Positions 2,394 to 41,744 of a stretch of DNA of 45,773 nucleotides are shown here, in pieces. Each line of letters starts with the position of its first letter. Position 1 is the stretch's first letter. Source of the DNA: Caldisericota bacterium (GTDB lineage: Bacteria; Caldisericota; JANLFM01); the NCBI GenBank assembly GCA_024655865.1, contig JANLFM010000011.1, positions 16,548-62,320 of the forward strand, read 5' to 3'. The notes under the pieces are model-generated. The model made no database searches. It was not told the origin of the DNA and saw only the letters and a program-made list of their open reading frames with translations. Made by a program: the position numbers and the translations under genes.

Positions 2394-2743
2394 TGGAGTT
2401 AAAGGAGTTCAAGAATTTCAGGGAAAGGATGAACGAAAAAATCTTGAGCAATGGTACCCTGGAGGTGAAACGCTTCTTTCATCTGGATTCCGAAGTTTAC
2501 AAGGATGGGGCCCTCCCGGCAAGGGTGAAAGAGCTTCTGGGTTTGGTTGCTTCATTAGTTTTGCGTTGCAATGACTGCGTGCTTTACCACTTGATTCAAT
2601 GTCACAAGGCCGGAATTACGGATGAGGAAATCTGGGAGGCCTGGAGCGTGGCTCTGATCGTGGGAGGCTCTATTGTCATCCCCCATCTCAGGGTGGCGGT
2701 GGATATGTGGCAGAAGATCAAGGAGGAAGCCAGGCTTACTTAA
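2390..2743 (+). CDS. carboxymuconolactone decarboxylase-like / AhpD-like protein
   Basis: A 117-residue alpha-helical protein of the CMD/AhpD superfamily. The redox motif CNDC gives C60 and C63, followed by H67 and a second cysteine near 71, matching the CxxC-xxx-H proton-relay site of AhpD-type alkylhydroperoxidases. It probably acts as a small thiol reductase or peroxidase in the cytoplasm; the substrate is unknown. The start codon overlaps the ligase stop by four bases (ATGA), so translation is coupled to the ligase, which suggests a link to oxidative damage repair (inference). Its 3' end overlaps the convergent molybdopterin gene by 8 bases. Confidence 0.82.
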   Translation: MMELKEFKNFRERMNEKILSNGTLEVKRFFHLDSEVYKDGALPARVKELLGLVASLVLRCNDCVLYHLIQCHKAGITDEEIWEAWSVALIVGGSIVIPHLRVAVDMWQKIKEEARLT

Positions 2744-5045: not shown

Positions 5046-5047
5046 GT

Positions 5048-7240
5048 TCAGGGATCCCTTAAAGCCTTTTTGATGGTCTCCGGAAGGACGGGGATTCTGG
5101 TGAACCTTACCCCTGTGGCGTCCCTCAAAGCATTGAGGATAGCGGGAGCCACGCCGATCATGGTCATCTCCCCCACCCCCTTGGCCCCAAAGGGACCTGC
5201 GGGATCAGGCACTTCCACGATGATCGGCTTCACCTCACCGGGAGTGTCTTTGGCAGTGGGAATAATGTAAGTGCTGAAGTTGGGGGTTTTGATCCTTCCT
5301 TGCTCCAGCACGAATTCCTCCATTAAGGCGTAGCTAATTCCCATTAAGACCCCTCCCCCGATCTGACCCTCAACAATATCAGGGTTTATCGCCTTACCCA
5401 AATCCGTGGCCCCGATCACGCTCTTTACCTCAACTGTCCCCAGGTCCGGGTCTACTTCTAATTCCACGATATTTGTGGTGTAGCCGTAGCTCTGATGGGG
5501 GATGCATTTCCCGTCAGGGCCAAAGGGAGTGGTAGGTCTCACGGTCTGGGTGCGGTAAAGGAATTCCCCTCGGATAAGGCCCCTTTTACCCTCAGCAATT
5601 TGCCTTTTCAATTCCTGGGCCGCTTCCAAAATTGCTCTCCCCGTCACGAACACCGAGCGAGAGGCGGAGTTGGAGCCTCCACTTTTCACCAAGGAGGTAT
5701 CCGGTTGTACAAAGGAAATGGCCTCAAAAGGTACCCCTGTAGCTTCAGCCGCTATCTGACAGAGCGCTGTTCTGATCCCCTGTCCGGAATCGGTAGAACC
5801 CACTTTGACTTTCAATTCCCCAATTTTCCCAGATGCGGAAACTTGAGCTTCCAGGATCACATGGGCGTGGTCATCGAAGCCAAAGCTATATCCCACGTTT
5901 TTATACACGCAGGCTACCCCTCTCCCCCAGAGCCTCCCCTTCTCGGCTTCCTTTCTGGGGGGAGCAATCCAGCGGCCATCCTCGTACTTCCATCCTGCCT
6001 CCAGCGCTGCGCGCCGCAGGGTCTCTTTGATTCCCACCCCTGGCGTGACAGGGTAACCCGTGGGCAAAATGGAGCCTTCATCAAGGAGGTTTTTCAACCT
6101 GAACTCCACAGGATCCATTTTCAAAGCGCGGCAGGCTTCATCAATTAAGCCCTCATAAATCATGGGAACCTGGGCGGAGCCAAAACCCCTCATAGCCATG
6201 GTCATTATATTGTTGGTGTAAACAGTGCGCCCCCGGACGCGCACGTTGGGAACATCGTAGGGGCCATTGGCGTAGGAAACGGCATTTGCCAGAACTACGA
6301 TGGAGGTGGAGGCGTAGGCTCCGGCATCGGAGGTCAGGTCAATATCCATAGCGATTACCCTTCCCTCCTTAGTGACCCCAATTTTCCCCTTCATGTAAAA
6401 GGGGTGTCTCTTCCCATGCCCCCTGATGGATTCCTCTCTGGTATAAACTAACTTCACCGGTTTTCCCGTGCGGTAAGCAGCAAGGGCTGCGAGAATCTGG
6501 AGGGAAATATCCTCCCTTCCGCCAAAGGTACCCCCCGCTTCCATTAATACCTCGCGAACTCGGTCCTCGGGGAGAGCGAGGGCATGGGCAATTTGGCGAA
6601 TGTCGTCGTGGATCCACTGGGAGGCCACATAGACAGTGACCCTTCCCTCCTCATCGATTAAACCCACTGCCGCTTCCGGCTGGAGGTAGGCGTGCTCATT
6701 GAATGGAGTGGAAAGGTTAAGTTCCAAAACCACATCAGCCGAGCGCAAGGCTTGATCTACATCGCCGTGATTTAAAAAGTATTCCTTGAGCAAATTGGTC
6801 CCTTGCTCCTCGTGAACCAGCGGGGCGCTGGGCTTCAAAGCCTCGATGGGGTCAAAAACTCCGGGCAAGGGCTCATATTCTACCTCAATTAGATCTCGAG
6901 CTTCCTCTGCGGCATCAGGGTTTTCTGCAATTACCAGAGCCACAGGATCCCCCACCGAGCGCACCTTCTTTCCGGCGAGAACGGCCTGGTCGTAAATGTA
7001 AATCCCGTATTCGTTCACAGGAACGTCCCTGTAGGTCAGAACTCGAACTACGCCGGGAACGTGCTCCGCCTTGGAGGTATCGATCCTCTTAATCAGAGCA
7101 TGGGGCTCAGAGGAAAAGAGAACCTTGGCATGAAGCATACCTGGAAAGTTCAAGTCGCCCGGGAAAAGCGCCCTTCCAGTAACCTTGGCCAAAGCGTCCA
7201 ATCGCGAAAGAGGCTGGCCTACATATTTAAAATCGGTCAT
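5048..7240 (-). CDS. xanthine dehydrogenase-family molybdopterin-binding subunit (first of tandem pair)
   Basis: A 730-residue molybdenum hydroxylase large subunit. The frame is open upstream to 7381, but the start chosen is ATG 7240 because GGAGG sits just before it and the protein then begins MTDFKYVGQPLSRLDALAK like its neighbour. It has the motifs QWIHDD, GGTFGGREDI, AMRGFGSAQ and GAKGVGEM (catalytic glutamate). It is clearly paralogous to the gene that follows two bases downstream, though too divergent to be a recent duplication. Such proteins hydroxylate N-heterocycles or aldehydes and pass electrons to iron-sulphur and flavin subunits; none is encoded here, so the partners must be shared or distant. 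The 5' region faces the divergent NlpC/P60-like gene across about 180 bases. Confidence 0.9.
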   Translation of the reverse strand: MTDFKYVGQPLSRLDALAKVTGRALFPGDLNFPGMLHAKVLFSSEPHALIKRIDTSKAEHVPGVVRVLTYRDVPVNEYGIYIYDQAVLAGKKVRSVGDPVALVIAENPDAAEEARDLIEVEYEPLPGVFDPIEALKPSAPLVHEEQGTNLLKEYFLNHGDVDQALRSADVVLELNLSTPFNEHAYLQPEAAVGLIDEEGRVTVYVASQWIHDDIRQIAHALALPEDRVREVLMEAGGTFGGREDISLQILAALAAYRTGKPVKLVYTREESIRGHGKRHPFYMKGKIGVTKEGRVIAMDIDLTSDAGAYASTSIVVLANAVSYANGPYDVPNVRVRGRTVYTNNIMTMAMRGFGSAQVPMIYEGLIDEACRALKMDPVEFRLKNLLDEGSILPTGYPVTPGVGIKETLRRAALEAGWKYEDGRWIAPPRKEAEKGRLWGRGVACVYKNVGYSFGFDDHAHVILEAQVSASGKIGELKVKVGSTDSGQGIRTALCQIAAEATGVPFEAISFVQPDTSLVKSGGSNSASRSVFVTGRAILEAAQELKRQIAEGKRGLIRGEFLYRTQTVRPTTPFGPDGKCIPHQSYGYTTNIVELEVDPDLGTVEVKSVIGATDLGKAINPDIVEGQIGGGVLMGISYALMEEFVLEQGRIKTPNFSTYIIPTAKDTPGEVKPIIVEVPDPAGPFGAKGVGEMTMIGVAPAILNALRDATGVRFTRIPVLPETIKKALRDP

Positions 7241-7385
7241 CCAGTTTTCCTCCCTGGAGGTTTCTCCTTTCGATTTTATAACCCGCTTTTGGCCAGGGCA
7301 ATAGATGTCCAACAAAAAGGAAAGTGAAATTTTTACTTTATTTTTATTCAAAAGGGCTTTAACACTTGAAAAAATTCCCAAAAAT

Positions 7386-7422: not shown

Positions 7423-8031
7423 ATGCTGGAAAAACGGATAAATATTGCTACAATACTGGTCTTCTTGCTGCTTATATTGCTGTTTCTAAGCACGAAAACC
7501 TGGGCTGTTCCAGAGATTTACCCTCTCCAAAGCAGGACGGAGGGAAAAGCAGGCATGAGCCTGAATTCTTCCCCCCAGGAAGCCACTGCTTCCCCCTCGC
7601 TTGCCGTTTTCACTACCAGCACCCCAAGTTACGTTCCCCCAAAAGCAAAACTGGAGGAGGTGCTAAAAGAAATTGAAAAGGACCCGTATTTAGATCAGGA
7701 CATTGTTTCCACTTATCATCCTGAGGGGTGTCTGGAGTTCGTGTATGCGGTCTTTAATAAGGCGGGTCTGGAAGTAAGCGAGATGCTTAAGAAGTCGATT
7801 CAGGTTCCCGAGCCTGAAGATGGTGATTTAATAAAGATTACAAGCTCTGTCTTTTATGGTTTGCCCCACTGGGGTATTTACTACAACGGGCTTGTTTACC
7901 ACAACTGGAGCTCATTCCGGGCTGAGCCATATCAGTATTTTAAGGACAGGTACGCCTTACCCTCTTCGCCCATTATCATTTACCACCCCGTGCTCAAAAA
8001 CCCTGGTTCCTTAACCTCTCTCTTTCGCTGA
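7423..8031 (+). CDS. secreted NlpC/P60-like cysteine peptidase/amidase (divergent)
   Basis: A 202-residue protein. Residues 1-28 are a basic start, a strong hydrophobic segment and a likely signal-peptidase site (TWA-VP). A low-complexity linker rich in Ser, Thr and Pro spans about 45-75. The C-terminal domain has the NlpC/P60 layout: cysteine C103 in EGCLEFVYAVF, GD before LIKI, H149 in PHWGIYYNG and H160 in LVYHNW. These match the catalytic Cys, first His and third polar residue of cell-wall peptidoglycan hydrolases or related amidases. The similarity is in motif order rather than close sequence, so the activity is inferred. It is transcribed divergently from the molybdopterin genes, and its 3' end overlaps the convergent cobalamin protein gene by 38 bases. 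Confidence 0.68.
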   Translation: MLEKRINIATILVFLLLILLFLSTKTWAVPEIYPLQSRTEGKAGMSLNSSPQEATASPSLAVFTTSTPSYVPPKAKLEEVLKEIEKDPYLDQDIVSTYHPEGCLEFVYAVFNKAGLEVSEMLKKSIQVPEPEDGDLIKITSSVFYGLPHWGIYYNGLVYHNWSSFRAEPYQYFKDRYALPSSPIIIYHPVLKNPGSLTSLFR

Positions 8032-9616
8032 TCGGCTTTCCTTTTTTCGGGTCATAGGAACGGCAGGAACCATCCTGAGTATAAACGGACACTGTTCCTA
8101 AAGCACAGGGCCTTCCCTTAAGGTGTGGGGCATCGAAAATTCCTTTTTCCACGACCTGGGCCAGGACTTCCACATCAGTAAAGGGATCCTCCGTTTTTCC
8201 CCTCAGAGAGCGGATGGTTTCCAGGAGGAAATGAGCATCCTCCAGGAGTTCCTCCTTTCTTCTTTGAACCCTGGGGTCGAGGGAGAGGGAAGGGGAATCG
8301 TTGAGCAGGTTACGCAGGACACCTCGAGCAATCTTGACGCTCTCTATCAGCTCCTCGGGGGTGACGGCATGATCTCCTTCGCAATATCCCACTATGTGCA
8401 GAATCTGCGGTTTCAGCTCTAAAGAGATCGAGGTGGAGGCGGCGAGTTGCCCTTTTGCGATGTAGGGATCCGGAGAAAAATGCGCTAACCCTGCTCTGAC
8501 CATATGCACAATGCGGAAATTTTGATCTTCCAGAGTACTTATCAACTCCTTCTGGGCAAGCATCTTCCCCAGGTCGTAAACTGCGGTCGTTTCCGGTGGG
8601 GTGTTGAACATGTACTGCTGCACGTAGACCGTTACTCCAGATTTTTTTGCAATGTAGGCTCCGAGGTAGGCGTCGGTGATAGCCACTGCATCGGGAGCAT
8701 AGCGCAGGGACCACTGGTGAGGATCATTGACCTCAAGAGGAATTTTCCTCTCCCCGTACCAGCGCATTACCTCAAGATTTTCCGCAATGGCTTCTCGAAG
8801 GGGCCTTTTGGACCGACCGTCAAGTTCGGAGTACCAGAAAATGGGAACGGCGCCGAAAGCATTGTTTATCAGCCGCACCGTCATCTCAGCCCATTTCAGA
8901 AGATCCCTTGTTCCAGCATAACATCTTAAAAGGGGGTAATTTCCACAGCGCGATTCCTCATAAATCCTGATTAAATCCTCCTCTGAGCGCAGGGGCACTC
9001 CTCCCGCCCCATCTAACCTGTGATCCATTTCCTGAGGACGGAAAAAGCTCTCCTGGGCATTTTGATCAGGCCCTAAGGAGATAATATCCACGATCCCTGC
9101 CTGGGCGATTCTTCTTACGCCCTTGATGGTTTCTTCAAGATCTGGAAGGCCAAAGTGGTGCCTGATCAATGGATAGGGAGATAGGTAATCAATACGCTCT
9201 ACAAGATTCTGGGGGGGGATGGAGGCCCTGCTTAAAAACTCCTCCCCGGCAAGGAAGGACTTTAGCTCCTCAAGAGGCTCGAGGCCGGAAAAGACCCTTT
9301 GGAAAATCCCCGACTTTTTTGCCAGCTCCGCCACCGGGGGTGTTCCTCCAAAAAGGAAGATTTTGTCCTGGAGTCCGTACTTCAAAATGAGTTCTTTCAG
9401 TTGAAGGAACAGGCTCGATGCGCTTTCCGGCGAGAGGCGATAGCTCACGGCCACGGCATCCGCCCTTTCTTTCACGGCTGCTTCGAGGAGCTGAGCTATG
9501 GGGATGGCTACCCCTAAACTTACGGTCCTGTGCCCGGCCTCCTCCGCCAGGCGGAAAAAATTCAAGAGCCCGGCGATATGCACATCGTTACCAATGGCAG
9601 CACCCACGATCTTCAT
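7994..9616 (-). CDS. cobalamin-binding domain fused to a TIM-barrel-like domain (mutase- or methyltransferase-like, unassigned)
   Basis: A 540-residue protein. Residues 1-115 form a base-off/His-on B12-binding Rossmann domain: D11, H13 and G16 give the DxHxxG motif (NDVHIAG), with VSYRLS near 57-62 and the GG pair at 90-91 (FLFGG). The remainder resembles a barrel like those of glutamate mutase epsilon or B12 methyltransferases (LDGAGGVPL, EVNDPHQW, GYCEGDHAVTPEE), but I cannot assign a specific reaction. A one-chain fusion of B12 domain and barrel is shorter than glutamate mutase S plus E. Its ATG overlaps the stop of the octopine-dehydrogenase-family gene (TAATG), so the two probably serve one amino-acid or imino-acid pathway (inference). 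Cytoplasmic. Confidence 0.7.
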   Translation of the reverse strand: MKIVGAAIGNDVHIAGLLNFFRLAEEAGHRTVSLGVAIPIAQLLEAAVKERADAVAVSYRLSPESASSLFLQLKELILKYGLQDKIFLFGGTPPVAELAKKSGIFQRVFSGLEPLEELKSFLAGEEFLSRASIPPQNLVERIDYLSPYPLIRHHFGLPDLEETIKGVRRIAQAGIVDIISLGPDQNAQESFFRPQEMDHRLDGAGGVPLRSEEDLIRIYEESRCGNYPLLRCYAGTRDLLKWAEMTVRLINNAFGAVPIFWYSELDGRSKRPLREAIAENLEVMRWYGERKIPLEVNDPHQWSLRYAPDAVAITDAYLGAYIAKKSGVTVYVQQYMFNTPPETTAVYDLGKMLAQKELISTLEDQNFRIVHMVRAGLAHFSPDPYIAKGQLAASTSISLELKPQILHIVGYCEGDHAVTPEELIESVKIARGVLRNLLNDSPSLSLDPRVQRRKEELLEDAHFLLETIRSLRGKTEDPFTDVEVLAQVVEKGIFDAPHLKGRPCALGTVSVYTQDGSCRSYDPKKGKPISERERLRNQGF

Positions 9617-10710
9617 TACCAGAAGCCTCCGGACTCCACAAGGTCATGGAGTTGATCAGCGGTTAAATCCTGGATTCCCAGCTTTTCCACAGTCCTTCCC
9701 TGAGCCCAGTAATCTGTTTGGTGGAGAACGGAGGCCAGATGAATCAGGGCCTGGATCGTGGGCACCGGAACCCCGAATTTTTCCCCTAAAGAGGCGATGG
9801 GGACAAGGCTCATGGGCACATCCTCACTGAGGTAGCGAGTCTGGAGCGTGGAAGGAGCGTTGATCCCGTAATATCCTTGATTATTCTGCATGGCCTCATA
9901 GAGATTGCTGCCTGTAGCGTCGTAGGCGACTTCCAGCCATTCTACTGCAGAGATCGCCTGAACTTTAAGGGCTTTTGCCACTTCCAGACGCTCGCGATCC
10001 ACCGCCTCCAGGATTCGGGAAGTAGTGGGGGAGTTGCCCTCGATGTAATATTGAAACTCGCCTCGCTCGTTCTCAATCCGTGCGGCATTGAGGATGGTCA
10101 AGGTAGGATGGAAAACGGAACCGATGTTATCCAAGCTGGTTTTCAGGACATTTTCCCCTTTGACGAATTCCGGAAAGGCTTGCCTGATAAGCTGAAGTGC
10201 CTGATTTGTATCGGTGTTTGGCAAAGCGGCCACCGGAATGGAATTCTTAATTCGGTAAATGTGCACCTGGGCTGGGTTTAAAGCCCGAGAGGCATAAATG
10301 AAGGTTTGGGCTTCCGCCACTATCACATCAGCCCTGCAACCCTCCTCTTTAAGGACATTGCGAAACTCAATTGCCCCGCAGGTCCGTCCCGGGTTTAAAA
10401 GGATAATTTGCCCATCCTCTAAATACGGGGCAACTTTTTGAGCGATAAAGGCGTGGCCGTTTGCAGGAACCACAACCATTAGCACATCAACCCCTTTTAT
10501 GGCTTCCTCGGGGTTAGTGGTGACAATGGAAATCGGAGCGAAACCCTGTACCTGTCCCGTTACTTCAATTCCACCTCTGGCGATCACGGGATTTAAACGA
10601 GGCTGGCTGCGATTGTAGAGGTTGACCTCATAGCCTTTCAATACCAAATGGGCAGCCATTGCTAAACCACCATTACCAGCCCCCAGCACGCAAAATTTAG
10701 GCTTCTTCAT
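9616..10710 (-). CDS. NAD(P)-dependent octopine/nopaline dehydrogenase-family protein
   Basis: A 364-residue two-domain dehydrogenase. The Rossmann nucleotide site is CVLGAGNGGLAMA at about 7-19, followed by the ketopantoate-reductase-like segment VDVLMVVVPANGH. The C-terminal helical domain contains GSVFHPTLTILNA and YEAMQNNQGYYGI, typical of the octopine dehydrogenase family (PF02317). Family members reductively join an amino acid to a 2-oxo acid or run the reverse reaction. The conserved histidine in SVFHP fits the substrate-polarising role known in that family. Start ATG 10710 has GGGGGG upstream. It is the first gene of an operon with the B12-binding protein, overlapping by one base. The substrate pair is unknown. 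Confidence 0.85.
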   Translation of the reverse strand: MKKPKFCVLGAGNGGLAMAAHLVLKGYEVNLYNRSQPRLNPVIARGGIEVTGQVQGFAPISIVTTNPEEAIKGVDVLMVVVPANGHAFIAQKVAPYLEDGQIILLNPGRTCGAIEFRNVLKEEGCRADVIVAEAQTFIYASRALNPAQVHIYRIKNSIPVAALPNTDTNQALQLIRQAFPEFVKGENVLKTSLDNIGSVFHPTLTILNAARIENERGEFQYYIEGNSPTTSRILEAVDRERLEVAKALKVQAISAVEWLEVAYDATGSNLYEAMQNNQGYYGINAPSTLQTRYLSEDVPMSLVPIASLGEKFGVPVPTIQALIHLASVLHQTDYWAQGRTVEKLGIQDLTADQLHDLVESGGFW

Positions 10711-15827: not shown

Positions 15828-16739
15828 ATGGAATTTAAGGATTATTACAAAATACTGGGCGTTCCTCGGGACGCTGATGAAAATACGATAAAGAGGGCGT
15901 ACCGGGAACTGGCAAAAAAGTACCATCCGGATTTGAATCCCGGAAATAAAGCGTCCGAGGAAAAGTTTCGGGAGATTAACGAAGCCTATGAGGTGCTCTC
16001 AGATCCTGAGAAAAGGGCCAAGTACGACCAACTGGGAGCTAACTGGGAAGAGCTTTCCCAGAGAGTGAAGTACACTGGCCCCGAGGCTCCTTTTGGCTTC
16101 GACTTTGATTTAGGAAATGCCCCATTCTCAGAGTTCTTCCGGGTCTTCTTCGGTAATGGAGGTTTTGATGTTCCGGGATTCACCCAAACTCGGACCAGAA
16201 AAGCGAGAAAGGGAGAAGACATCCATACCAGCGTGGAGATCACACTGGAGGAGGCATTTCGGGGGTCAACCAGAATAATTGAGTATTCCCTTGGAGGGAA
16301 AAGGAAAACTCTGGAGGTGAAAATTCCTCCAGGAATTGAGCCCGGAACCAAAATCAGGTTAAAGGCACAGGGTTACCCCTCTCAATTTGGAGGTCAACCG
16401 GGCGACATGTACCTGGAAGTAAAGGTTGCTCCTCATCCCTACTTCCAGTTAAAAGGGAAGGATATTTACCTGGAGGTACCGGTGACCCTCACAGAAGCTG
16501 TGCTGGGAGCAAAAATCGAGGTTCCCAGCCTCAAAGGGAAGGTGCTCCTGAATATTCCCCCCGAAACCCAGAACGGCACCACCTTCAGGCTTAAGGGTTT
16601 AGGATTACCCCCTACCGGCGACCAGTACGTGAAAGTGAATGTAGTCCTTCCTCAAAATCTTACTCTTGAAGAAAAAAGGTTGTTCGAGGAGCTCAAAAAA
16701 TACGAAAGAACTAACCCCAGAAAACATTTGGGGTTGTAA
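15828..16739 (+). CDS. DnaJ/CbpA-type J-domain co-chaperone without zinc fingers
   Basis: A 303-residue Hsp40. The J domain is at 1-70 ([20 protein letters not shown]) with the HPD motif in [10 protein letters not shown], which stimulates DnaK ATPase. A short glycine/phenylalanine-rich linker (about 75-120) leads into two beta-sandwich substrate-binding domains ([33 protein letters not shown]). The CxxCxGxG zinc repeats of classical DnaJ are absent, so it is a CbpA-like class II protein. GGAAAAG precedes the ATG. clpB follows after 16 bases. It sits in the HspR operon and probably links DnaK with the ClpB disaggregase. Confidence 0.93.
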
Positions 16740-28199: not shown

Positions 28200-28237
28200 A
28201 AAGTATTCCCTTTGCCCTTCTCAGCTTATAATATGAA
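28200..28237 (+). promoter_or_regulatory. TATAATATGAA-type promoter, H4MPT cluster
   Basis: TATAAT lies at 28227-28232, preceded by an AAAGT-TTCCC-CCTT block instead of a TTGACA element. The same arrangement recurs before the DegV gene at 34639-34676, with 28 of 38 identical bases in ungapped register. It lies about 85 bases before the DUF447 start. Confidence 0.5.
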
Positions 28238-28317
28238 GATTAAGATGGACCTGAATGTAAAAGCACTTGAGAGCCCTGTCAATTGGTATGGGAAAAGGGC
28301 TTCATCCCGGTGAAGCT

Positions 28318-28872
28318 ATGATTGTGGAAGTGATTCTTTCAACTTTGAGTTCAAATGGAGAGCCAAACTTTGCTCCTATGGGGGTCGTATGGGGGGAAGA
28401 GGAGATTACTGTGCGGCCCTTTAGAAACACCCAGACTTTCCGCAATTTAGTAGCCACAAAGTGCGGTGTAGCCTCTGTGACTGATGATGTGCTCGCCTTC
28501 GCACGCAGTGCCCTGGAGGACGCCTGCCTTCCACACTTTCCTGCGAGGTCCATACCAGGAATCGTTTTTCAGGGTTGTTGTTACTGGCGCGAGCTTGAAG
28601 TGATGGCTATCGAAGAAGGGGAGGAAAGGGCTGAGGTACACTGCCGGGTAGTGGAGAAAGGATGGCAGCGGGATTTTTTGGGCTTTAACAGAGCTCGGAA
28701 TGCGGTGATCGAGGCCGCAATCCTGGCAACTCGAATGAATTTAATCCCTCGGGAAGAGGCTTTAACACTTCTGGAACGATATGCCGAAATTGTGCGAAAG
28801 ACTGGAGATGAACCCGAAGGGGTGGCTTTTGAGCTCGTGCGCCAATACATTATAAAAGGAGGGAAAACATGA
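28318..28872 (+). CDS. DUF447 family protein, H4MPT-cluster associated
   Basis: A protein of 184 residues from ATG 28318 (the frame is open to TTG 28267, and ATG 28288 is an alternative). ATG 28318 is favoured by GGTGAAG and because MIVEVILSTL-NGEPNFAPMGV is the family start. It belongs to the DUF447 family, which has a flavin-reductase-like split-barrel appearance and is found in archaea and in bacteria with H4MPT genes. Its step is not established. The start of the RFAP synthase overlaps its stop (ATGA), a tight link to cofactor biosynthesis. RNAVIEAAILATRM near residue 130 is a conserved helix. It probably acts in pterin or flavin-dependent chemistry (inference). Confidence 0.8.
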   Translation: MIVEVILSTLSSNGEPNFAPMGVVWGEEEITVRPFRNTQTFRNLVATKCGVASVTDDVLAFARSALEDACLPHFPARSIPGIVFQGCCYWRELEVMAIEEGEERAEVHCRVVEKGWQRDFLGFNRARNAVIEAAILATRMNLIPREEALTLLERYAEIVRKTGDEPEGVAFELVRQYIIKGGKT

Positions 28873-29891
28873 CCGTCACGGTTAAGGCACCAGCCCGCCT
28901 CCATTTTGGTTTTCTCGATTTGAACGGCGAGCTGGGCCGGCTATACGGAAGCCTTGGCATGGCAATTGATCGCCCACAGGTCATTTTAAAGGGGGAACTG
29001 ATCGAAAAATCAAGGAGGAGCGAAATCGAGACCCGGTTCAAGGAAGCTCAATCAAGCGCAATAGGCCCCACAGAAGTGATAGTGATAGGAGAAAAAAAGG
29101 CAAGAGTGCTGACCTATGCGCGCAGGTTTCTGGAATGCTTTCCTTTGCCGGGAATCGTGTCTCTAAAGCTTGAGGAAACTATCCCGGCACACGTTGGTCT
29201 GGGTTCAGGAACACAGCTTTCCCTTGCAGTAGGCACGGCGCTAGCCCAATTAGCGGGGATAAAAACAAGTGTACAGGATCTGGCTTTGATTATGGGACGT
29301 GGTGTTCATTCAGGAATCGGTATTGGCACCTTTCAATACGGAGGATTTATCGTAGATGGAGGGCATGCGGTGGTCGAAAGTAACCCCAAAGTCCCCCCAA
29401 TTATATTTCAGCACCCTGTCCCGCGTTCCTGGATCCTCGTTATTGCCATTCCCTCAATAGAGCCCGGGTTCGCGGGCCTACGGGAAAAGCAGGCATTTCA
29501 ATCCTTACCCCCAGCACCTCCGTCCCTTCCTGAAAAAATCTGCCGATTGCTTCTTGTACAAATGTTGCCCGCACTGAAAGAAGAGAATCTCAAAAATTTC
29601 GCCCAGGCGCTCACGGTAATTCAGCAATTAGTGGGGGAATGTTTTGCTCCTGTCCAGGGGGGCCGCTTTGCTAATTCCGTATCCGCCGAGCTCATTGAGT
29701 ACTGGTTGGAGCAAGGAGTCTATGGCGCTGGTCAGAGCTCATGGGGTCCAACCGTGTATGCTCTGGTAGACGAAGAGGAGCAAGCGGCTGCCCTGTTAGA
29801 CTTAAGCAAGAAATGGCTGGCAAAACGTGGAGGTGGCGAGGTGTTCTTAGCCCGGTCAAACAACCAGGGCGCTTCTGTTATTGAAGGTTAA
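28869..29891 (+). CDS. mptG: beta-ribofuranosylaminobenzene 5'-phosphate synthase (beta-RFAP synthase)
   Basis: A 340-residue GHMP-fold enzyme. It joins 4-hydroxybenzoate or 4-aminobenzoate to PRPP with loss of carboxylate, the first committed step to the methanopterin side chain. Evidence: the opening VKAPARLHFGFLDLNG, the glycine-rich HVGLGSGTQLSLAVGTAL (about 113-130, the GHMP phosphate loop), GRGVHSGIGIGTF and GGFIVDGGH, all characteristic of RFAP synthase rather than other GHMP kinases. RFAP synthase is diagnostic for H4MPT-type cofactors; folate synthesis does not use it. It overlaps DUF447 and is followed by a 120-base gap with a consensus promoter for the HPPK-MptA gene. Confidence 0.92.
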   Translation: MTVTVKAPARLHFGFLDLNGELGRLYGSLGMAIDRPQVILKGELIEKSRRSEIETRFKEAQSSAIGPTEVIVIGEKKARVLTYARRFLECFPLPGIVSLKLEETIPAHVGLGSGTQLSLAVGTALAQLAGIKTSVQDLALIMGRGVHSGIGIGTFQYGGFIVDGGHAVVESNPKVPPIIFQHPVPRSWILVIAIPSIEPGFAGLREKQAFQSLPPAPPSLPEKICRLLLVQMLPALKEENLKNFAQALTVIQQLVGECFAPVQGGRFANSVSAELIEYWLEQGVYGAGQSSWGPTVYALVDEEEQAAALLDLSKKWLAKRGGGEVFLARSNNQGASVIEG

Positions 29892-29945
29892 CCTTCAGCT
29901 TCCTGGAGATAGAGGTTTGATCGAAAAATGGATGCCTGGTTAAGT

Positions 29946-29975
29946 TTGACACCCCTACTTTTCAATTTCTATAAT
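29946..29975 (+). promoter_or_regulatory. consensus sigma70 promoter for the HPPK-MptA gene
   Basis: Perfect TTGACA at 29946-29951 and perfect TATAAT at 29970-29975 with an 18-base spacer. The predicted start point near 29982 leaves a 30-base leader with GAGG before ATG 30012. Confidence 0.8.
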
Positions 29976-30011
29976 CGATAAAAAGCTTATTTTAGCGGAT
30001 TGAGGAAAACA

Positions 30012-31472
30012 ATGACCGCATCTCATAAGGTCTATTTGGGCTTGGGTTCAAATCTGGGGGATCGTCAAAATAACATAATTCAGGCTTTACAGCAGTTGAA
30101 GTCCCAGGTATCAGTGGAGAAGGCTTCATCCTTTTACGAAACCGAGCCAGTGGGCTACCTGGACCAGCCACTTTTCATCAATGCCGTCTGCCTTGTCTCC
30201 ACGGATTTGACTCCTCAGGAGCTTTTTTCTTTCGTTAAAAGAATAGAGCGACGCATGGGGCGTCAACAAGCATTTCGGAATGCACCGCGCCCCATTGATA
30301 TCGATATCCTGTTCTATGATGACCTGGTCCTGGAGTCGCCAGAGCTCACAATACCTCACCCCAGCCTGCACCAGCGCGCTTTTGTCCTGGTTCCCTTAGC
30401 CGAAATTGCCCCCACACTCGTGCACCCGGTCCTGAAAAGCACAGTAGCTGAGTTGCTGGAAAAAGTTGACCCCAGAGGAGTGCGAAAGCTTTCTCGCAGT
30501 CTGCAATTATCCCTGGGACGGGATCTCCAGGAAACCGTTCCCTCTGTCCATGTCAGTTTAAGCCGGGTGGGGATCACCAATATGCAGCGCATTATTAGCC
30601 TGGCCAGCGATGGCGGGTGCAATCTTTTCTATACGAACCTGGAACTTTTTGTGGACCTGCCTCCCATGCAAATGGGCGCTCACATGTCGCGTTTCAGTGA
30701 CGCCCTGGAAGAAGTGGTGGATGAGGTAACAGCCCAAAAAGCGGCTAATGTTGAGTCTCTGGCTGAAGCAATTGCCCGGCAGATTGTGGAAAGACAGGGA
30801 GCAGTTCGCTCTGAAGTACGCCTTTACGCCAAATACCCAGTAGAAAAGATCACCCCTGTTTCCGCAAAAAGGACGCAAGAACTCTATTCACTGATCAGCA
30901 TAGCCGTTTACAATGGGAAAACCCTGAAAAGCATAATTGGAGTGGAGGCTGAGGGCATGACTGCATGCCCCTGTGCTCAGGATATGGTCCGGGATTACTC
31001 CAGGGAGCGGCTGCTGGAGGAAGGTTTTTCAGAAGAACAGGCCGAGAAGATCCTGGGGGCTATCCCCATTGCCTCACATAACCAGAGAGGGCGGGGAACC
31101 CTGCTTGTCGGATCGAAAGAACGGATTAGAGCAGAAGAGCTGGTGGAGATCGTGGAATCCTCCATGAGCTCCGAAACCTATAACCTGTTGAAGCGCCAGG
31201 ACGAGCTCTTTGTAGTTAATAAGGCCCATCGTAATCCCATGTTTGTGGAGGACGTGGTCCGCGAGATGCTCTATAACGTGGTAGAAACTTACCCCAATTT
31301 GCCCGATGACGCCTTCGTCTGGGCTAAACAGGTGAATTTTGAGGGGATCCACAAACACGACGTCTTTGCTGAAAGGTTCGGTACCCTGGGAGAAATCCGC
31401 AAGGAAGTCCTGGAGGGGCAGCATATCAGTAAACACACGACCCTGGAAGAATGGCTGAATACCGCAGAATAG
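30012..31472 (+). CDS. fusion: HPPK (FolK) - GTP cyclohydrolase MptA/FolE2-type
   Basis: A 486-residue fusion. Residues 1-165 are 6-hydroxymethyl-7,8-dihydropterin pyrophosphokinase: YLGLGSNLGDR, FYETEPVGYLDQPLFINA, FRNAPRPIDIDIL (metal-binding Asp pair) and IPHPSLHQRAFVLVPL. Residues about 174-486 are a COG1469 GTP cyclohydrolase: PSVHVSLSRVGITNMQ, VDLPPMQMGAHMSR, MTACPCAQDM (CPC at 319-321), SHNQRGRGTLL, VESSMSSETYNLL and KHDVFAERFGTLGE. CPCAQ and HNQRGRG match archaeal MptA rather than bacterial FolE2 (CPCSK, GAHNQRS). MptA makes 7,8-dihydroneopterin 2',3'-cyclic phosphate, so the fused domains act at the start and middle of one pathway. ATG 30012 is chosen over TTG 30000 by GAGG. Both domains look intact. 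Confidence 0.92.
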   Translation: MTASHKVYLGLGSNLGDRQNNIIQALQQLKSQVSVEKASSFYETEPVGYLDQPLFINAVCLVSTDLTPQELFSFVKRIERRMGRQQAFRNAPRPIDIDILFYDDLVLESPELTIPHPSLHQRAFVLVPLAEIAPTLVHPVLKSTVAELLEKVDPRGVRKLSRSLQLSLGRDLQETVPSVHVSLSRVGITNMQRIISLASDGGCNLFYTNLELFVDLPPMQMGAHMSRFSDALEEVVDEVTAQKAANVESLAEAIARQIVERQGAVRSEVRLYAKYPVEKITPVSAKRTQELYSLISIAVYNGKTLKSIIGVEAEGMTACPCAQDMVRDYSRERLLEEGFSEEQAEKILGAIPIASHNQRGRGTLLVGSKERIRAEELVEIVESSMSSETYNLLKRQDELFVVNKAHRNPMFVEDVVREMLYNVVETYPNLPDDAFVWAKQVNFEGIHKHDVFAERFGTLGEIRKEVLEGQHISKHTTLEEWLNTAE

Positions 31473-31574
31473 CCCCTTGGAAGGACGATTCCCAAGAGCT
31501 CTCTTCTTTTGAGCCAATCCCTAAATTAGTGTTCGGGAAAGTTATTAGCTTGATAGCGAGATAGGACTGAGATT

Positions 31575-32096
31575 ATGAAAAAAATTGCCTGGGCGATTAC
31601 GGGAGCGGGCCATTTTCTTCAAGAATGTGCGGAATTGCTCACGAACTTGCCCAATGCAGATGTTTTTCTCTCAAAAGCGGCGGAGGAGGTCCTAAAAATG
31701 TACCGTCTGGAAGAGAAAGTCCTCCAGAGCGCGAGAGCCGTGATCCGGGATAGTATGGCCAGCGCGCCCATCGTGGGCAGGTTCTCCAGGGGAACCTACA
31801 ATGTTTTGGTGGTGGCCCCGGCCACTTCCAACTCCGTAGCTAAATTTGTCTATGGCATTGCAGATTCCCTGGTATCTAACCTGTTTTCCCAGGCGGGGAA
31901 ATCCCGGGTGCCTATCATAGTTCTTCCAACCGATGTAAAAGAAGAGGTGGACTCTCGAGGGCCTAAAGGCGATCTGGTCAAGGTCTATCCTCGGAACATC
32001 GACCTGGAAAATATTGAAAGGCTGAGCAAATTTTCAGGAGTAACGGTTGTGCGCAGCGTAGAGGAGCTGAAGAAATGCTTAAATATTTATTTGTAA
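31575..32096 (+). CDS. flavoprotein, DmrB/AfpA-like (putative dihydromethanopterin reductase)
   Basis: A 173-residue FMN-binding flavoprotein of the PF02441 superfamily. It opens KKIAWAITGAGHFLQECAELL, with SKAAEEVLKMY, then the flavin-binding YNVLVVAPATSNSVAKFVYGIADSL and VPIIVLPTD. Closest in pattern to archaeoflavoprotein AfpA and to DmrB, which reduces dihydromethanopterin to H4MPT using a redox partner. Its place between the MptA fusion and the dihydropteroate-synthase-like gene makes that last step the best guess (inference). Its last 22 bases overlap the next gene. No PPC-decarboxylase catalytic cysteine context is seen, so it is not a CoaC. Confidence 0.82.
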   Translation: MKKIAWAITGAGHFLQECAELLTNLPNADVFLSKAAEEVLKMYRLEEKVLQSARAVIRDSMASAPIVGRFSRGTYNVLVVAPATSNSVAKFVYGIADSLVSNLFSQAGKSRVPIIVLPTDVKEEVDSRGPKGDLVKVYPRNIDLENIERLSKFSGVTVVRSVEELKKCLNIYL

Positions 32097-33418
32097 CCGG
32101 AAAATTAGCCGCTGAAGCGCTTGCGGATACCTTATCAAAAATGGCCCCCGATTTCCAGTATGAGATCTCGGTTCTCCCCATTACCGTCGCTGCCTTGATG
32201 CAGCCTTCCTTCATAGCCAGGCACCTGTCCTCGGGAATCGATTATGACTACATTATGGTTCCAGGATGGGTTCGAGGAGATTTGAGCCTCGTGGAAGACA
32301 AAACAGGGTGCAAAGTTATAATAGGCCCCAAAGATCTCAAGGATATCCCTCTCTTTTTCGGGCGCTCGCGCCCGAGAGAGGGTTATGGAGAACACACCGT
32401 CAAGATATTCGCTGAGATTGTGGACGCTCCTCTCTTGAGCCTGGAAGAGATTCTGACTCGGGCGGAATATTATCGGTCAAGTGGCGCCGACATCATTGAC
32501 CTGGGGTGGCCGGCAGAAGGAAGCTTTGACAACGTAGAGGAGGTAATAACCGCTTTAAAGGAACGCGGTTTCGTAGTAAGCCTGGACACATTTCACAGGG
32601 AAGATATTTTGCGCGCAAATCGAGTGGGCTTTGATTACCTGCTCAGTGTAAATTCCTCCAATTTAGACCTCGTTCGCGAACTCTCCTGCACCGTTGTAGT
32701 TATCCCTGACTTTGGTGGAGGACTGGATTCCCTTGAACGCAACATAGCAAAACTCGAGGAATGGGGGGTACCTTACATCATTGATCCCATCATCAACCCT
32801 ATAAATTTCGGTTTCACCGAGTCCCTCTGTCAATTCCACGAAGTCCGCAGACGACATCCCACCGCTAAAATGCTGATCGGGGTGGGAAACATTACCGAGC
32901 TCGTGGATGCTGATAGCCTGGGCATCAATGTCCTTCTAATGGGAATAGTGAGTGAGTTGAACATCGACTACATTTTGACTACCGAGGTGATCAGCTGGGC
33001 AAAGGGTTCTGTGCGTGAATTAGACATAGCCCGGAAATTAATGCATTATTCCCGTAAGAACCAGATTTTGCCCAAGAACATAGATAATCGCTTGATCGCT
33101 CTTAAAGACATTCCCCACACTCATTTCACTGAGGAAGAACTGCGCCGTATCCAGAAAGAGATTCGGGATAGCAATTTCCGCATCTTCACGGACGAGGAAA
33201 AAATATATGTTTTTAACCGCGACCTTTTTATTACGGGAACGGACCCTGAAGAGATCTTTGTCCAGCTCAATGTTAAGGAAGCTTCCCACGCCTTTTATCT
33301 TGGCCGCGAGCTGGAAAGAGCAGCACTGGCAGTGCGTTTAGGGAAGAAGTATATTCAAGAAGAGCCCTTGCACTGGGGCTATCTGGGGTGGAATAACAAA
33401 ACAGGCAAGGATAGTTAA
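32075..33418 (+). CDS. DUF6513 / dihydropteroate synthase-like protein
   Basis: A 447-residue protein. Residues 1-120 are DUF6513 (YLFVTGKLAAEALADTL, VMVPGWVRGDL-like segment). Residues about 120-380 form a TIM barrel related to dihydropteroate synthase: ILTRAEYYRSSGADIIDLGW, VVSLDTFHREDILRANRVG, YIIDPIINPINFGF, MLIGVGNITELVDAD. This architecture (dihydropteroate-synthase-related, TIGR00284-like) occurs in methanogens and H4MPT bacteria and is thought to couple the dihydropterin diphosphate with the RFAP-derived arene. Conserved DHPS residues are only partly kept, so the reaction remains unproven. It overlaps the flavoprotein gene by 22 bases; the DUF1464 gene follows after 39 bases. Confidence 0.85.
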   Translation: MLKYLFVTGKLAAEALADTLSKMAPDFQYEISVLPITVAALMQPSFIARHLSSGIDYDYIMVPGWVRGDLSLVEDKTGCKVIIGPKDLKDIPLFFGRSRPREGYGEHTVKIFAEIVDAPLLSLEEILTRAEYYRSSGADIIDLGWPAEGSFDNVEEVITALKERGFVVSLDTFHREDILRANRVGFDYLLSVNSSNLDLVRELSCTVVVIPDFGGGLDSLERNIAKLEEWGVPYIIDPIINPINFGFTESLCQFHEVRRRHPTAKMLIGVGNITELVDADSLGINVLLMGIVSELNIDYILTTEVISWAKGSVRELDIARKLMHYSRKNQILPKNIDNRLIALKDIPHTHFTEEELRRIQKEIRDSNFRIFTDEEKIYVFNRDLFITGTDPEEIFVQLNVKEASHAFYLGRELERAALAVRLGKKYIQEEPLHWGYLGWNNKTGKDS

Positions 33419-33457
33419 TTAGCGATCAAGGCAAAATTTAAGGAGGAGGTTGAAAAA

Positions 33458-34555
33458 GTGGAAAGAAAAGTGCGAGTAATCGGGGTTGATCCAGGAACTG
33501 TCAGTTTTGACGTCTGCGGGTTGGAAGACGACCAGGTGTTCTGCGATACTACCTTACCCACGGCCGAGGTAGGCGCTGCACCTCAACTTCTGGTTGAGTT
33601 CCTGAAATCAACCGCCCCTCTGGACTTTATTGTTGCTCCCTCGGGGTATGGCCTCCCGTGGGTAAACATTCAAGATTTTGGCCCTCGGGAACTCTTCCAA
33701 TATGTTCTGGTAGACAGTAAGGAGAGAAAACCGCCTTCCCTTTTAAAGGGGATGACCGAGATGATAAAACTCTTTAAGGAAACCGATCTTCCCGTGTACT
33801 TCATGCCAGGGGTCATCCACCTTCCCACCATCCCGGAGTACCGGAAAGTCAATAAAATCGATATGGGCACTGCGGATAAGCTCTGTTGCGCAGTACTCGG
33901 GGTTTTTGACCAGGCACGCCATTATGACATTCCCTACGAGAAGACTTCCTTTATCATGGTTGAAGTGGGCGGAGCTTACACAGCTGTAATGTGTGTTAGG
34001 GATGGTAAGATAATTGACGGTCTGGGAGGCACCTATACCAGCCTGGGGTATCTCTCCCTTGGGGCTATGGATTCTGAATTAGCCTACCTTTTGGGAAACT
34101 TCGATAAAGACGTCCTCTTTTCAGGAGGAGCGGCTTATGTGGCTGGCCGTCCCGATCTTACACCAGAGGACTTTGCCAGGCTCAGCCAGAGCGACGATCG
34201 GGTACGAATAGCCTGGGAAGCATTAATGGAGGGTGTGGTAAAATGCGTGCTCAAAGAGATGGCTGTCCTGCCAGAGCCCCGGGAAATTTTGCTCTCTGGC
34301 CGCTTATGTCGCACAGAACGGATACTTCAGGAGTTAAGGGAAAGATTGGCACGCTATGCCCCGGTGCGAAGAGTTGAAGGAATTGCGAAAGTTGCTAAGG
34401 AGGCTGCACAGGGAGCTGCCATTATAGCCAATGGCATGGCCGGAGGAAAATTTAAGGAACTGGTCGAGGTAATGGAGCTTAAGGGCGCAAAAGGAACATT
34501 GCTGGATCACCTCTACATAAAAGACACGAATCGTTTGCGAGAAAAGTATTTATAA
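33458..34555 (+). CDS. DUF1464 actin/sugar-kinase-fold protein, H4MPT-cluster associated
   Basis: A 365-residue protein of the acetate/sugar kinase-Hsc70-actin fold. PHOSPHATE-1 motif: VIGVDPGTVSFDVCGL at about 7-22. PHOSPHATE-2 region: MVEVGGAYTAVMCVRDGKI. Adenosine-loop region: ILLSGRLCRTERILQEL. The family (DUF1464) is mostly archaeal and has been called a predicted kinase, without biochemical proof. GTG 33458 follows a strong AGGAGGAGG. It is the last gene of the plus-strand cluster, so a kinase or ATP-dependent ligase-like step on a pterin or side-chain intermediate is possible (inference). Confidence 0.8.
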   Translation: MERKVRVIGVDPGTVSFDVCGLEDDQVFCDTTLPTAEVGAAPQLLVEFLKSTAPLDFIVAPSGYGLPWVNIQDFGPRELFQYVLVDSKERKPPSLLKGMTEMIKLFKETDLPVYFMPGVIHLPTIPEYRKVNKIDMGTADKLCCAVLGVFDQARHYDIPYEKTSFIMVEVGGAYTAVMCVRDGKIIDGLGGTYTSLGYLSLGAMDSELAYLLGNFDKDVLFSGGAAYVAGRPDLTPEDFARLSQSDDRVRIAWEALMEGVVKCVLKEMAVLPEPREILLSGRLCRTERILQELRERLARYAPVRRVEGIAKVAKEAAQGAAIIANGMAGGKFKELVEVMELKGAKGTLLDHLYIKDTNRLREKYL

Positions 34556-39662: not shown

Positions 39663-41744
39663 TTAAAGCAATATCCTGGCGTCCACCACGATAAGACCCG
39701 ACTCGTAAAGCATTACCGGGTTGGCATCCAGCTCTTTTATCTCGGGGAAGTCCACCACGAGCTGGGATAACCTGGATAAAGACTCAGCCAGAGTATCTAG
39801 ATCCCTGGGTCCTTGCCCCCTTACCCCTTTGAGAATTGATGCTGCCTGAATTTCCAAGGCCATTTTCTTCGCTTCCTCAACGGTTACCGGAGCCACGCGG
39901 AAGGTAACGTCCTTCAGCACCTCAACAAAAATACCGCCCAACCCGAACATCACCACCTGCTGGAACTGCGGATCGCGGATAGCGCCGAAGATCACTTCTG
40001 TGCCCCCAGGAGAGGCCATTTTCTGAACAAGCACGCCCACGATCCGAGCATCAGTTTTATATTTCCTGGCGTTGACTATGATTTCTTCGAAGGCCTTTTT
40101 CACATCCTCAGCATTCTTGAGGTTTATCTTAACTCCCTTCGCTTCGGTCTTGTGGATGATATCCGGAGACGAGATCTTGAGCACCACGGGGTAACCGATT
40201 TCTTCGGCCGCCTTCACCGCCTCTTCAGGGTTTGTGGCCAGGATACTGGGGGCTAAGGGCAACCCGTAGGCTTTGAAAATCTGTCCGGCTTCATATTCCA
40301 TTAAGGCTGTTCGCCCTTCGAACTTTACTTTAGTAAGGATCTCCCTGACTTTTTCCTTGTCCACGGGGTGAGGGTGGAATTGAAGATCTTTTCTCTTCAG
40401 GCACTTTCCGTAGTGACGCAGAGCGCTAAGGGCACTCAGGGCATCATCAGGATCAAAATAGGTGGGGATGCCCTTGCTCTTGAGCCATTCTCCGGCTTTG
40501 ACACAACGCTCGCCCCCGATGAAAGAGACAACTATGGGCTTCACTGCCCCAGCCTGAACGTAGGCTTCATAAAGGCCCTCGGCGATGTTCTGGGGATCAG
40601 TAATCGAGGTCTCACAATAAAGGATGGCGGCGCCATCCGTCCAGGGATGGTTCAGCGCATCCAGGAGGCAACCCTGATACCAGGGGCGGTCAGCCATTCC
40701 AGTCATGTCAACTGGATTGCGGGGGCTACCGAAATCGGGCATCCACTTGCGAAAAAGGTTTTTTAGATCCTCTGGTGGGTCAGTAAGAGGGATTCCGTGC
40801 CTTTCCGCAGCATCGGTAGCCAGAACGCCGGCTCCCCCACCATTGGTGATCACGGCTACGTGATCACCCATTAAGGGTTTCATCATAGAAAGAGCGATTG
40901 ATCGGGTAAAAAGCTCGTCCAGGCTCCTGGCGGGGACTATTCCGTACTGCTCAAAAGCGGCAGTATATACTTTGCTTGATCCCGCAAGAGAACCTGTGTG
41001 GGAGGCCGTAGCAAGTTCCCCTCTCTGGGAAACACCGGCCTTCAGGGCTACGATGGGTTTCCTGCTTTTTCTAGCGGATTCCAGGAACTTCCTCCCATCC
41101 TTTACGCCCTCTATATACAGGCTGATACAGGTAGTGTTTGGATCCTCATTCAGGGCATCGATGAAGTCAGCGAAATCCAAATCAGCCATGTTTCCAATGG
41201 AGATCATGTGGGATATACCAATCTTATTGATCCAGGTCATACCGTCCAGAGCAATGAGCAGCGCACCACTCTGAGAAACCAAGGCTATTGGCCCGGGGTA
41301 TGGAAGGTAGGGCCCAAAAGATGCGTTCGCTTTAGCGGGATTGTTGAGAATACCCACGATATTGGGGCCAACGAGGTACATATTGTACCTGTGAGCAATA
41401 TTCACCAATTCCTCTTCCAGGTCCTTGCGCCCGACCTCTCCAAAGCCGGAGGTAATTACGGCAACTACCTTCACGCCCTTTTTTCCGGCGTCCTCAACGG
41501 CCTGAAGCGCTACAGCAGCAGGAACGGTCAGTACAGCAAGATCCACATCTTCTGGAATTTCTGTGGCAGCTTTATAGCATTTGAGACCAAGGATCTCATC
41601 AGCGTTGGGGTTTACCGGGAAAATCTTGCCTTGGTATTGGGAATCCAGGAGGCCTTTTACAACCATATAGCCAATGGAGCCTTCCTTACGAGATGCACCG
41701 ATAACCGCAATGGAGCGAGGGTTAAAAATTGCTTCTAATTTCAC
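39663..41744 (-). CDS. acetate/acyl-CoA ligase (ADP-forming), fused alpha-beta chain
   Basis: A 693-residue NDP-forming acyl-CoA synthetase. Alpha part (about 1-455): CoA-binding AVIGASRKEGSIGY, VVAVITSGFGEVG, VGPNIVGILN, ALVSQSGALL and the phosphorylated histidine H249 in TASHTGSLAGS. Beta part (about 460-690): ATP-grasp with YEAGQIFKAYGLPLAPS, YPVVLKISSPDIIHKTEAKG and LGGIFVEVLKDV. It converts acetyl- or acyl-CoA, ADP and phosphate to acid and ATP, typical of archaea and some anaerobic bacteria. Start GTG 41744 with GGAGGAAG upstream. It suggests ATP gain from acyl-CoA in a fermentative or acetogenic life style (inference). Confidence 0.93.
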   Translation of the reverse strand: MKLEAIFNPRSIAVIGASRKEGSIGYMVVKGLLDSQYQGKIFPVNPNADEILGLKCYKAATEIPEDVDLAVLTVPAAVALQAVEDAGKKGVKVVAVITSGFGEVGRKDLEEELVNIAHRYNMYLVGPNIVGILNNPAKANASFGPYLPYPGPIALVSQSGALLIALDGMTWINKIGISHMISIGNMADLDFADFIDALNEDPNTTCISLYIEGVKDGRKFLESARKSRKPIVALKAGVSQRGELATASHTGSLAGSSKVYTAAFEQYGIVPARSLDELFTRSIALSMMKPLMGDHVAVITNGGGAGVLATDAAERHGIPLTDPPEDLKNLFRKWMPDFGSPRNPVDMTGMADRPWYQGCLLDALNHPWTDGAAILYCETSITDPQNIAEGLYEAYVQAGAVKPIVVSFIGGERCVKAGEWLKSKGIPTYFDPDDALSALSALRHYGKCLKRKDLQFHPHPVDKEKVREILTKVKFEGRTALMEYEAGQIFKAYGLPLAPSILATNPEEAVKAAEEIGYPVVLKISSPDIIHKTEAKGVKINLKNAEDVKKAFEEIIVNARKYKTDARIVGVLVQKMASPGGTEVIFGAIRDPQFQQVVMFGLGGIFVEVLKDVTFRVAPVTVEEAKKMALEIQAASILKGVRGQGPRDLDTLAESLSRLSQLVVDFPEIKELDANPVMLYESGLIVVDARILL

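Follow-up and report, generated by a model that had tools for sequence, protein, structure and literature searches.

We analyzed a 45,773-nucleotide stretch of a Caldisericota bacterium genome (GTDB JANLFM01; assembly GCA_024655865.1, contig JANLFM010000011.1, forward-strand positions 16,548 to 62,320), referred to here in its entirety as the window, and found in it six contiguous genes that, judged by their protein families, very probably direct synthesis of a tetrahydromethanopterin (H4MPT)-type cofactor. The explanation that we favor, and consider probable, is that this cluster would serve a one-carbon (C1) branch linking CO2 and the methylene level, encoded at a second locus on contig C11, and that the branch most likely oxidizes methylene units derived from amino acids. 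Termination of the branch at methylene is likely in its own right; its operation in the oxidative direction is an even proposition. The gene set as a whole is real and bacterial, and it looks functional.

Open reading frames (ORFs) and hidden Markov model (HMM) searches placed the six genes on the forward strand between positions 28,267 and 34,555, in the order DUF447, MptG, HPPK-MptA fusion, AfpA/DmrB-like flavoprotein, TIGR00284 dihydropteroate synthase (DHPS)-like protein and DUF1464, with two neighboring pairs overlapping (Table 1). They are flanked on the left by polysaccharide deacetylase, BioY and enolase genes and on the right by DegV and a major facilitator superfamily transporter. 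The sibling species Caldisericota bacterium A05DMB09 (JANLFL010000002.1), the one other genome of the genus that was compared, has the same six-gene order and the same flanking genes, except for BioY, which was not seen there. The six proteins share 57-84% amino acid identity with their sibling counterparts, with nonsynonymous differences (pN) of 0.10-0.29 and synonymous differences (pS) that are saturated or nearly so. Maintenance of gene order, together with low pN against such pS, indicates that the cluster is not a chance assembly. A preliminary description of this DNA had located six genes here and read them as a bacterial H4MPT-type cofactor cluster. All six are present at that position and on that strand with HMM support, and their HMM identities, along with H4MPT-using enzymes found elsewhere in the genome, bear out the reading. 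The families it listed were correct as well; what it gave as MptA and HPPK is a single fused ORF of 490 amino acids.

MptG (β-ribofuranosylaminobenzene 5'-phosphate (RFAP) synthase) is the enzyme that commits the pathway to H4MPT. The protein encoded in the window retains 46 of the 48 positions that are invariant among 14 other bacterial MptG proteins, and it scores higher than Methylobacterium MptG against TIGR00144 (209 versus 159). The stricter equivalog model NF040726 (328) is missed by this protein (240), by that of the sibling (246) and by four other bacterial MptG proteins (174-226). By its profile scores, the MptA domain of the fusion is an MptA-type GTP cyclohydrolase rather than FolE2 (TIGR00294, 314 bits, above 220; FolE2 model, 148, below 215), and it falls short of the GTP cyclohydrolase IV model NF010204 (142; cut-off 468). 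The HPPK domain reaches 146 bits against TIGR01498 (cut-off 54), and the fused protein carries the motifs LGSNLG, PRPIDIDI, CPCAQD, SHNQR and IHKHD. The TIGR00284 protein retains the DHPS-type pterin-site motifs SLDT, N and DP, and its predicted structure, of moderate quality (predicted local distance difference test score (pLDDT) 67), shows a DHPS-type fold and has dihydropteroate synthases as its best PDB matches (E 7e-6). The predicted structure of the DUF1464 protein was too poor for use (pLDDT 46). In Methylomirabilota, DUF447 adjoins MptG at two loci (L013 and L014), and DUF1464 adjoins the DHPS-like gene at the first of these.

The listed TTG starts of DUF447 and of the fusion are probably each a few codons too early, with likelier starts at about 28288 and at 30012, respectively. 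The region contains 11 promoter-like sites compared to 7.2 ± 2.4 in shuffled sequences; therefore only the 12/12 consensus match just upstream of the fusion gene deserves attention.

In the scheme that these assignments suggest, MptA would open GTP, HPPK would activate the pterin, MptG would form RFAP from phosphoribosyl pyrophosphate and aminobenzoate, the TIGR00284 protein would join pterin to RFAP, and the AfpA-like flavoprotein would perform the final reduction, with the DUF447 and DUF1464 proteins acting at unassigned steps. The cluster would thus supply most of an H4MPT-type cofactor to the operon on contig C11.

Genes for folate synthesis and use (FolD, FolE and FolP) are present separately, FolE and FolP lying together, and we accordingly rejected replacement of folate by H4MPT. 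The domain fused to MptA is the only HPPK found in this genome and in the sibling, which suggests that folate and H4MPT may draw on a common pyrophosphorylated pterin precursor. In two same-family genomes lacking H4MPT genes (G051 and G052), HPPK resides in a protein of 350-370 amino acids whose N-terminal part reads as FolB-like, and in a third (G053) FolB-like and HPPK are separate neighboring ORFs. Two same-family genomes have an FtcD-like formiminotransferase gene between FtsH and FolE; in the genome studied here it is not at that position (L120).

The genes of the C11 locus all run the same way and encode DUF2193, MtdB, an ATP-grasp protein (a weak MfnD match), FwdD, FwdB, FwdA, Ftr, FwdC, Mch, an MptN-like ligase and a CitG-like protein, and the sibling operon has an identical order. 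Scores for FwdA (780 bits), FwdB (568), FwdC (272) and Ftr (443 and 454) all exceed equivalog or subfamily cut-offs, Mch has a PDB match at E 5e-100, and MtdB is recognized by Mpt_N. The genome thus contains H4MPT-using C1 enzymes (MtdB, Mch, Ftr and FwdABCD). Within the phylum, MptG matched above cut-off in 2 of 54 genomes and Mch was found in 2 of 41, in each case only this genome and the sibling; neither occurs in three same-family genomes. FwdB retains both the [4Fe-4S] cysteines (CPFCGCLC) and Cys118, the Mo/W-ligand catalytic cysteine (STFCHGP), and a separate FwdD is present; these features mark the complex as a formylmethanofuran dehydrogenase of the archaeal type, competent in redox chemistry, and set it apart from the hydrolytic FhcB type of methylotrophs. 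FhcB sequences from methylotrophs are without the catalytic cysteine, and their neighborhoods yielded no FwdD. PDB comparisons point the same way (archaeal FwdB, E 1e-130; Methylobacterium extorquens FhcB, E 1e-18). Past the operon lie MobA, at a distance of 2-3 kb, and HypA/HypB, at about 12 kb. Of two CitG-like genes in the vicinity, the first is the operon member, a gene that many bacterial owners of MptG keep next to Mch and MptN.

DUF2193 heads the operon before MtdB in both species. The two proteins are 94% identical (enolase, 90%), and their pS of 0.58 is the lowest of all genes tested. Searches of 11 other bacterial owners of MptG did not find the family, whereas Methanosarcina acetivorans gave a match, and it has no PDB relative by sequence; one paper records it as conserved in methanogens, with a possible Fe-S motif (PMC9431491). 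As a speculative and rather doubtful extension, DUF2193 could be an H4MPT-linked C1-transfer enzyme that replaces Fae or feeds methylene-H4MPT, in a genus that retains the pathway in an early bacterial state, with archaeal Fwd, an NAD(P)-linked MtdB and no methyl branch, and uses it to dispose of amino acid C1 units.

On the favored explanation, C1 units would be carried on the H4MPT-type cofactor as methylene (MtdB), methenyl (Mch) and formyl (Ftr) groups, and a Mo/W FwdABCD would link a formylated methanofuran (MFR)-like carrier with CO2. The boundaries of this branch follow from searches for missing pathway parts. The source assembly (1.82 Mb, 63 contigs) is 96% complete and the sibling's is 98% complete; the genome was examined by family searches and in chosen stretches rather than tiled end to end, and at 96% completeness any individual absence has a small chance of being mistaken. 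Positive controls matched in the searches for acetyl-CoA synthase (ACS), Fae, methylenetetrahydrofolate reductase (MTHFR) and MfnB. CdhC/ACS (PF03598) was not found in this genome, the sibling or five relatives; Fae (PF08714) and MTHFR were not found in this genome or the sibling, Mer and MtrH lying outside the searches. A search with PF00809 returned only FolP and the DHPS-like protein, with no methyltransferase of the MetH or AcsE type. The preliminary description had suggested that the cofactor might serve an archaeal-style Wood-Ljungdahl or a formaldehyde branch. Neither use survives in its classic form: with ACS and MTHFR not found in a 96%-complete assembly we rejected the Wood-Ljungdahl acetyl-CoA pathway, and with Fae likewise not found we rejected the Fae route. 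Since neither an MTHFR-type methyl exit nor ACS nor Fae was found, what remains as a net reaction is conversion of methylene-H4MPT to CO2 or its reverse.

Between these directions we favor oxidation, because ACS, MTHFR and Fae were not found and because the region around the window resembles that of an amino acid user: upstream on the same contig are an ornithine carbamoyltransferase-like gene (by reading of the sequence) and an arginine deiminase-like gene (weakly matched at 76 bits, cut-off 489), and the window itself carries an ADP-forming acyl-CoA synthetase-like gene (39663-41744). Methylene units of serine and glycine would then be oxidized to CO2, yielding NAD(P)H and reduced ferredoxin.

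The reverse, with Fwd acting in CO2 fixation to formyl-MFR and methylene-H4MPT passing from the branch into serine and glycine synthesis (the reductive glycine route in an H4MPT version), is the strongest alternative, although we think it rather unlikely. Fwd is of the archaeal redox type, which is reversible in archaea, and HypA/HypB suggest a hydrogenase. Furthermore, formyltetrahydrofolate synthetase (FTHFS) is absent from this assembly, so formate entry via folate may be lacking. The sibling, however, has FTHFS, no carbon-fixing endpoint (ACS) was found, and the genomic surroundings suggest amino acid use. The absence of FTHFS here may reflect an incomplete assembly or a difference between the species; its loss from the genus was considered and dropped, the sibling gene lying on a contig of 122 kb whose composition is compatible. 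There FTHFS, a cyclodeaminase-like protein and FolD occur in a row, next to genes that resemble those for making molybdopterin and for a tungstate-type ABC transporter.

A methylotroph-like role in detoxifying or oxidizing formaldehyde, with methylene-H4MPT formed spontaneously or with help from DUF2193, is unlikely. The MtdB-Mch-Ftr-Fwd/Fhc set is indeed the formaldehyde module of methylotrophs, and an uncharacterized gene (DUF2193) heads the operon; set against this are the failure to find Fae, a complex of the Fwd and not the Fhc type, and the lack of any methylotrophy gene seen within the window and chosen flanks.

Contamination of the bin by an archaeon or methylotroph had to be considered, as the assembly is a draft in 63 contigs and its contamination is estimated at 2.85%. 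The sibling, however, carries both loci on contigs of 436 and 493 kb among the same bacterial neighbors, G+C content (0.50-0.51) and tetranucleotide signal agree with the flanks, and the proteins are 6-43% different from their sibling counterparts, which argues against one shared contaminant. The sibling loci and composition largely refute a binning artefact, which we rejected as very improbable. Synthesis of a C-nucleoside by a ForT-type enzyme in place of RFAP is scarcely credible: ForT provides the nearest solved structures to MptG (E 3e-20), yet the neighboring genes (MptA, HPPK, DHPS-like, DmrB/AfpA-like), the H4MPT-using enzymes in the genome and a TIGR00144 score above that of Methylobacterium MptG all oppose it.

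Several observations weigh against the oxidative H4MPT explanation, in addition to the FTHFS result. The flavoprotein is equally near DmrB-type MJ0208 (134) and AfpA (132) and falls under both equivalog cut-offs; the TIGR00284 protein, which carries DUF6513 and PterinBD-DUF4346, scores 231 bits, under its cut-off of 257; and the MptN-like ligase scores 291 bits, under 350. MfnB (PF04476) was not found in this genome or the sibling, implying that the furan carrier is made in another way or is different. None of FwdE, FwdF and FwdG is in the C11 operon, leaving the electron partner unassigned. Presence, conserved order and key residues are read directly from the sequence; the chemistry of each step, the direction of flux and the source of the methylene units we infer.

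Elsewhere in the window are an ATP-dependent DNA ligase whose N-terminal, middle and C-terminal domains are of archaeal/eukaryotic type although the host is a bacterium, two back-to-back xanthine-dehydrogenase-family large subunits, a 540-amino-acid protein with a B12-binding domain beside an octopine-dehydrogenase-like protein, and an ADP-forming acyl-CoA synthetase-like gene with its alpha and beta domains in one chain.

Table 1. Locations of the cofactor genes and of other features discussed (window positions unless a locus is named)
Feature	Location	Strand	Evidence or remark
DUF447 protein, cofactor-cluster gene	28267..28872	+	PF04289 (DUF447_N) and PF20766 (DUF447_C) above cut-off
MptG, β-ribofuranosylaminobenzene 5'-phosphate synthase	28869..29891	+	TIGR00144 209 bits > 113.5
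Sigma70-type promoter match TTGACA-18-TATAAT	29946..29975	+	12/12 consensus match, sequence only; just upstream of fusion gene
HPPK-MptA fusion, 490 aa	30000..31472	+	PF01288, PF02649, TIGR00294, TIGR01498
AfpA/DmrB-like flavoprotein, probable dihydromethanopterin reductase	31575..32096	+	TIGR02700 134 bits, TIGR02699 132 bits
TIGR00284 DHPS-like protein, probable pterin-RFAP condensing enzyme	32075..33418	+	231 bits, cut-off 257
DUF1464 protein, cofactor-cluster gene	33458..34555	+	PF07318 346 bits
FolB-like/HPPK loci, same-family genomes	L138:9128-10177, L140:8803-9915, L139:1372-2428		compared with window 30000-31472
DUF2193, own contig C11	L007:11201-12742		heads C1 operon
DUF2193, sibling	L009:9218-10759		heads C1 operon
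CitG-like gene, operon member	L008:3748-4626	+
CitG-like gene, second	L008:7529-8575	-
FTHFS, cyclodeaminase-like, FolD	sibling contig C43, L144:7666-10875
FtcD-like formiminotransferase, two same-family genomes	L125:7044-8138, L126:6791-7771		between FtsH and FolE
ATP-dependent DNA ligase	771-2393	+
Two xanthine-dehydrogenase-family Mo-binding large subunits	2736-7381	-	both under every equivalog cut-off
B12-binding-domain protein and octopine-dehydrogenase-like protein	7994-10710	-	neither matches an NCBIfam model at E 1e-20
ADP-forming acyl-CoA synthetase-like gene	39663-41744	-

Among known systems, the locus L013 of Methylomirabilota (JACQQF010000074.1) is similar in having DHPS-like, DUF1464, DUF447 and MptG genes adjacent to each other, MtdB-FwdDBA-Ftr-FwdC-Mch-MptN-CitG nearby, a FwdD, and a FwdB with Cys118 and the FeS motifs; its proteins are 51% (Mch), 62% (Ftr) and 53% (FwdB) identical to those of Caldisericota. 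It differs in carrying both gene sets on one contig stretch, in showing no HPPK-MptA fusion or AfpA-like gene in the 21 kb examined, and in that DUF2193 was not found in its genome. Methylotrophic Proteobacteria (Methylobacterium and others) have homologs of MptG, MtdB, Mch, MptN, CitG and the ATP-grasp protein in one island. In contrast to Caldisericota, with its Fwd-type complex and no Fae found, they normally use Fae and possess FhcABCD, with no FwdD seen and an FhcB that lacks the catalytic cysteine and is 26-29% identical to Caldisericota FwdB. The H4MPT methyl branch of methanogens and related archaea shares MptA, Fwd with its Mo/W site, Ftr and Mch, archaeal PDB sequences being 44-48% (FwdB) and 48-51% (Mch) identical; Caldisericota, conversely, has an NAD(P)-type MtdB instead of the F420-type Mtd, ACS and MfnB were not found in it, and canonical folate genes are present.

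The origin of the bacterial H4MPT/MFR genes, from archaea or from a common ancestor, is disputed. Small trees of Mch, Ftr and FwdB were built with archaeal PDB sequences as the outgroup. Caldisericota Mch branches outside a group of Methylomirabilota plus methylotrophs (support 83), and its identity to archaeal (48-51%) and Methylomirabilota (51%) proteins exceeds that to methylotroph proteins (40-45%). FwdB falls with Methylomirabilota near the archaeal sequences and far from FhcB (support 100 for the FhcB clade, 46 for the position of Methylomirabilota), and the Ftr tree did not resolve the placement (support 66). Trees and identities fit the known picture of non-methylotrophic bacteria holding a less derived form, and are neutral as to the direction of transfer.

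A full-text literature search, with most subscription journals outside its coverage, found no paper reporting an H4MPT pathway in Caldisericota. The operon order fwdDBA-ftr-fwdC is known from a non-methylotrophic anaerobic bacterium, the Hakuba Actinobacteria, in which Merino et al. 2020 (PMC7325909) found the folate Wood-Ljungdahl pathway complete but no genes for methanopterin biosynthesis; Caldisericota presents the reverse. H4MPT/MFR genes have been reported from Deltaproteobacteria, Firmicutes, Actinomycetes, Synergistetes, Chloroflexi and NC10, with fwdD in Synergistetes, Firmicutes and NC10 and Afp in Synergistetes and Firmicutes, and their role in non-methanogenic, non-methylotrophic species was termed enigmatic (Chistoserdova 2016, PMC5020050). 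Those bacteria resemble ours in lying outside the Proteobacteria and in having FwdD-bearing complexes, whereas Caldisericota, an HPPK-MptA fusion and DUF2193 are not mentioned in that list. The kind of system described here is thus already known (Synergistetes, Firmicutes, NC10); what is new is the phylum, the fusion as the only HPPK found, and DUF2193 at the head of the C1 operon. The genus thus brings in a further phylum, and its set is minimal and nearly complete, comprising the cofactor genes and Fwd-Ftr-Mch-MtdB with ACS and Fae not found; this set narrows the possible functions to methylene-CO2 interconversion.

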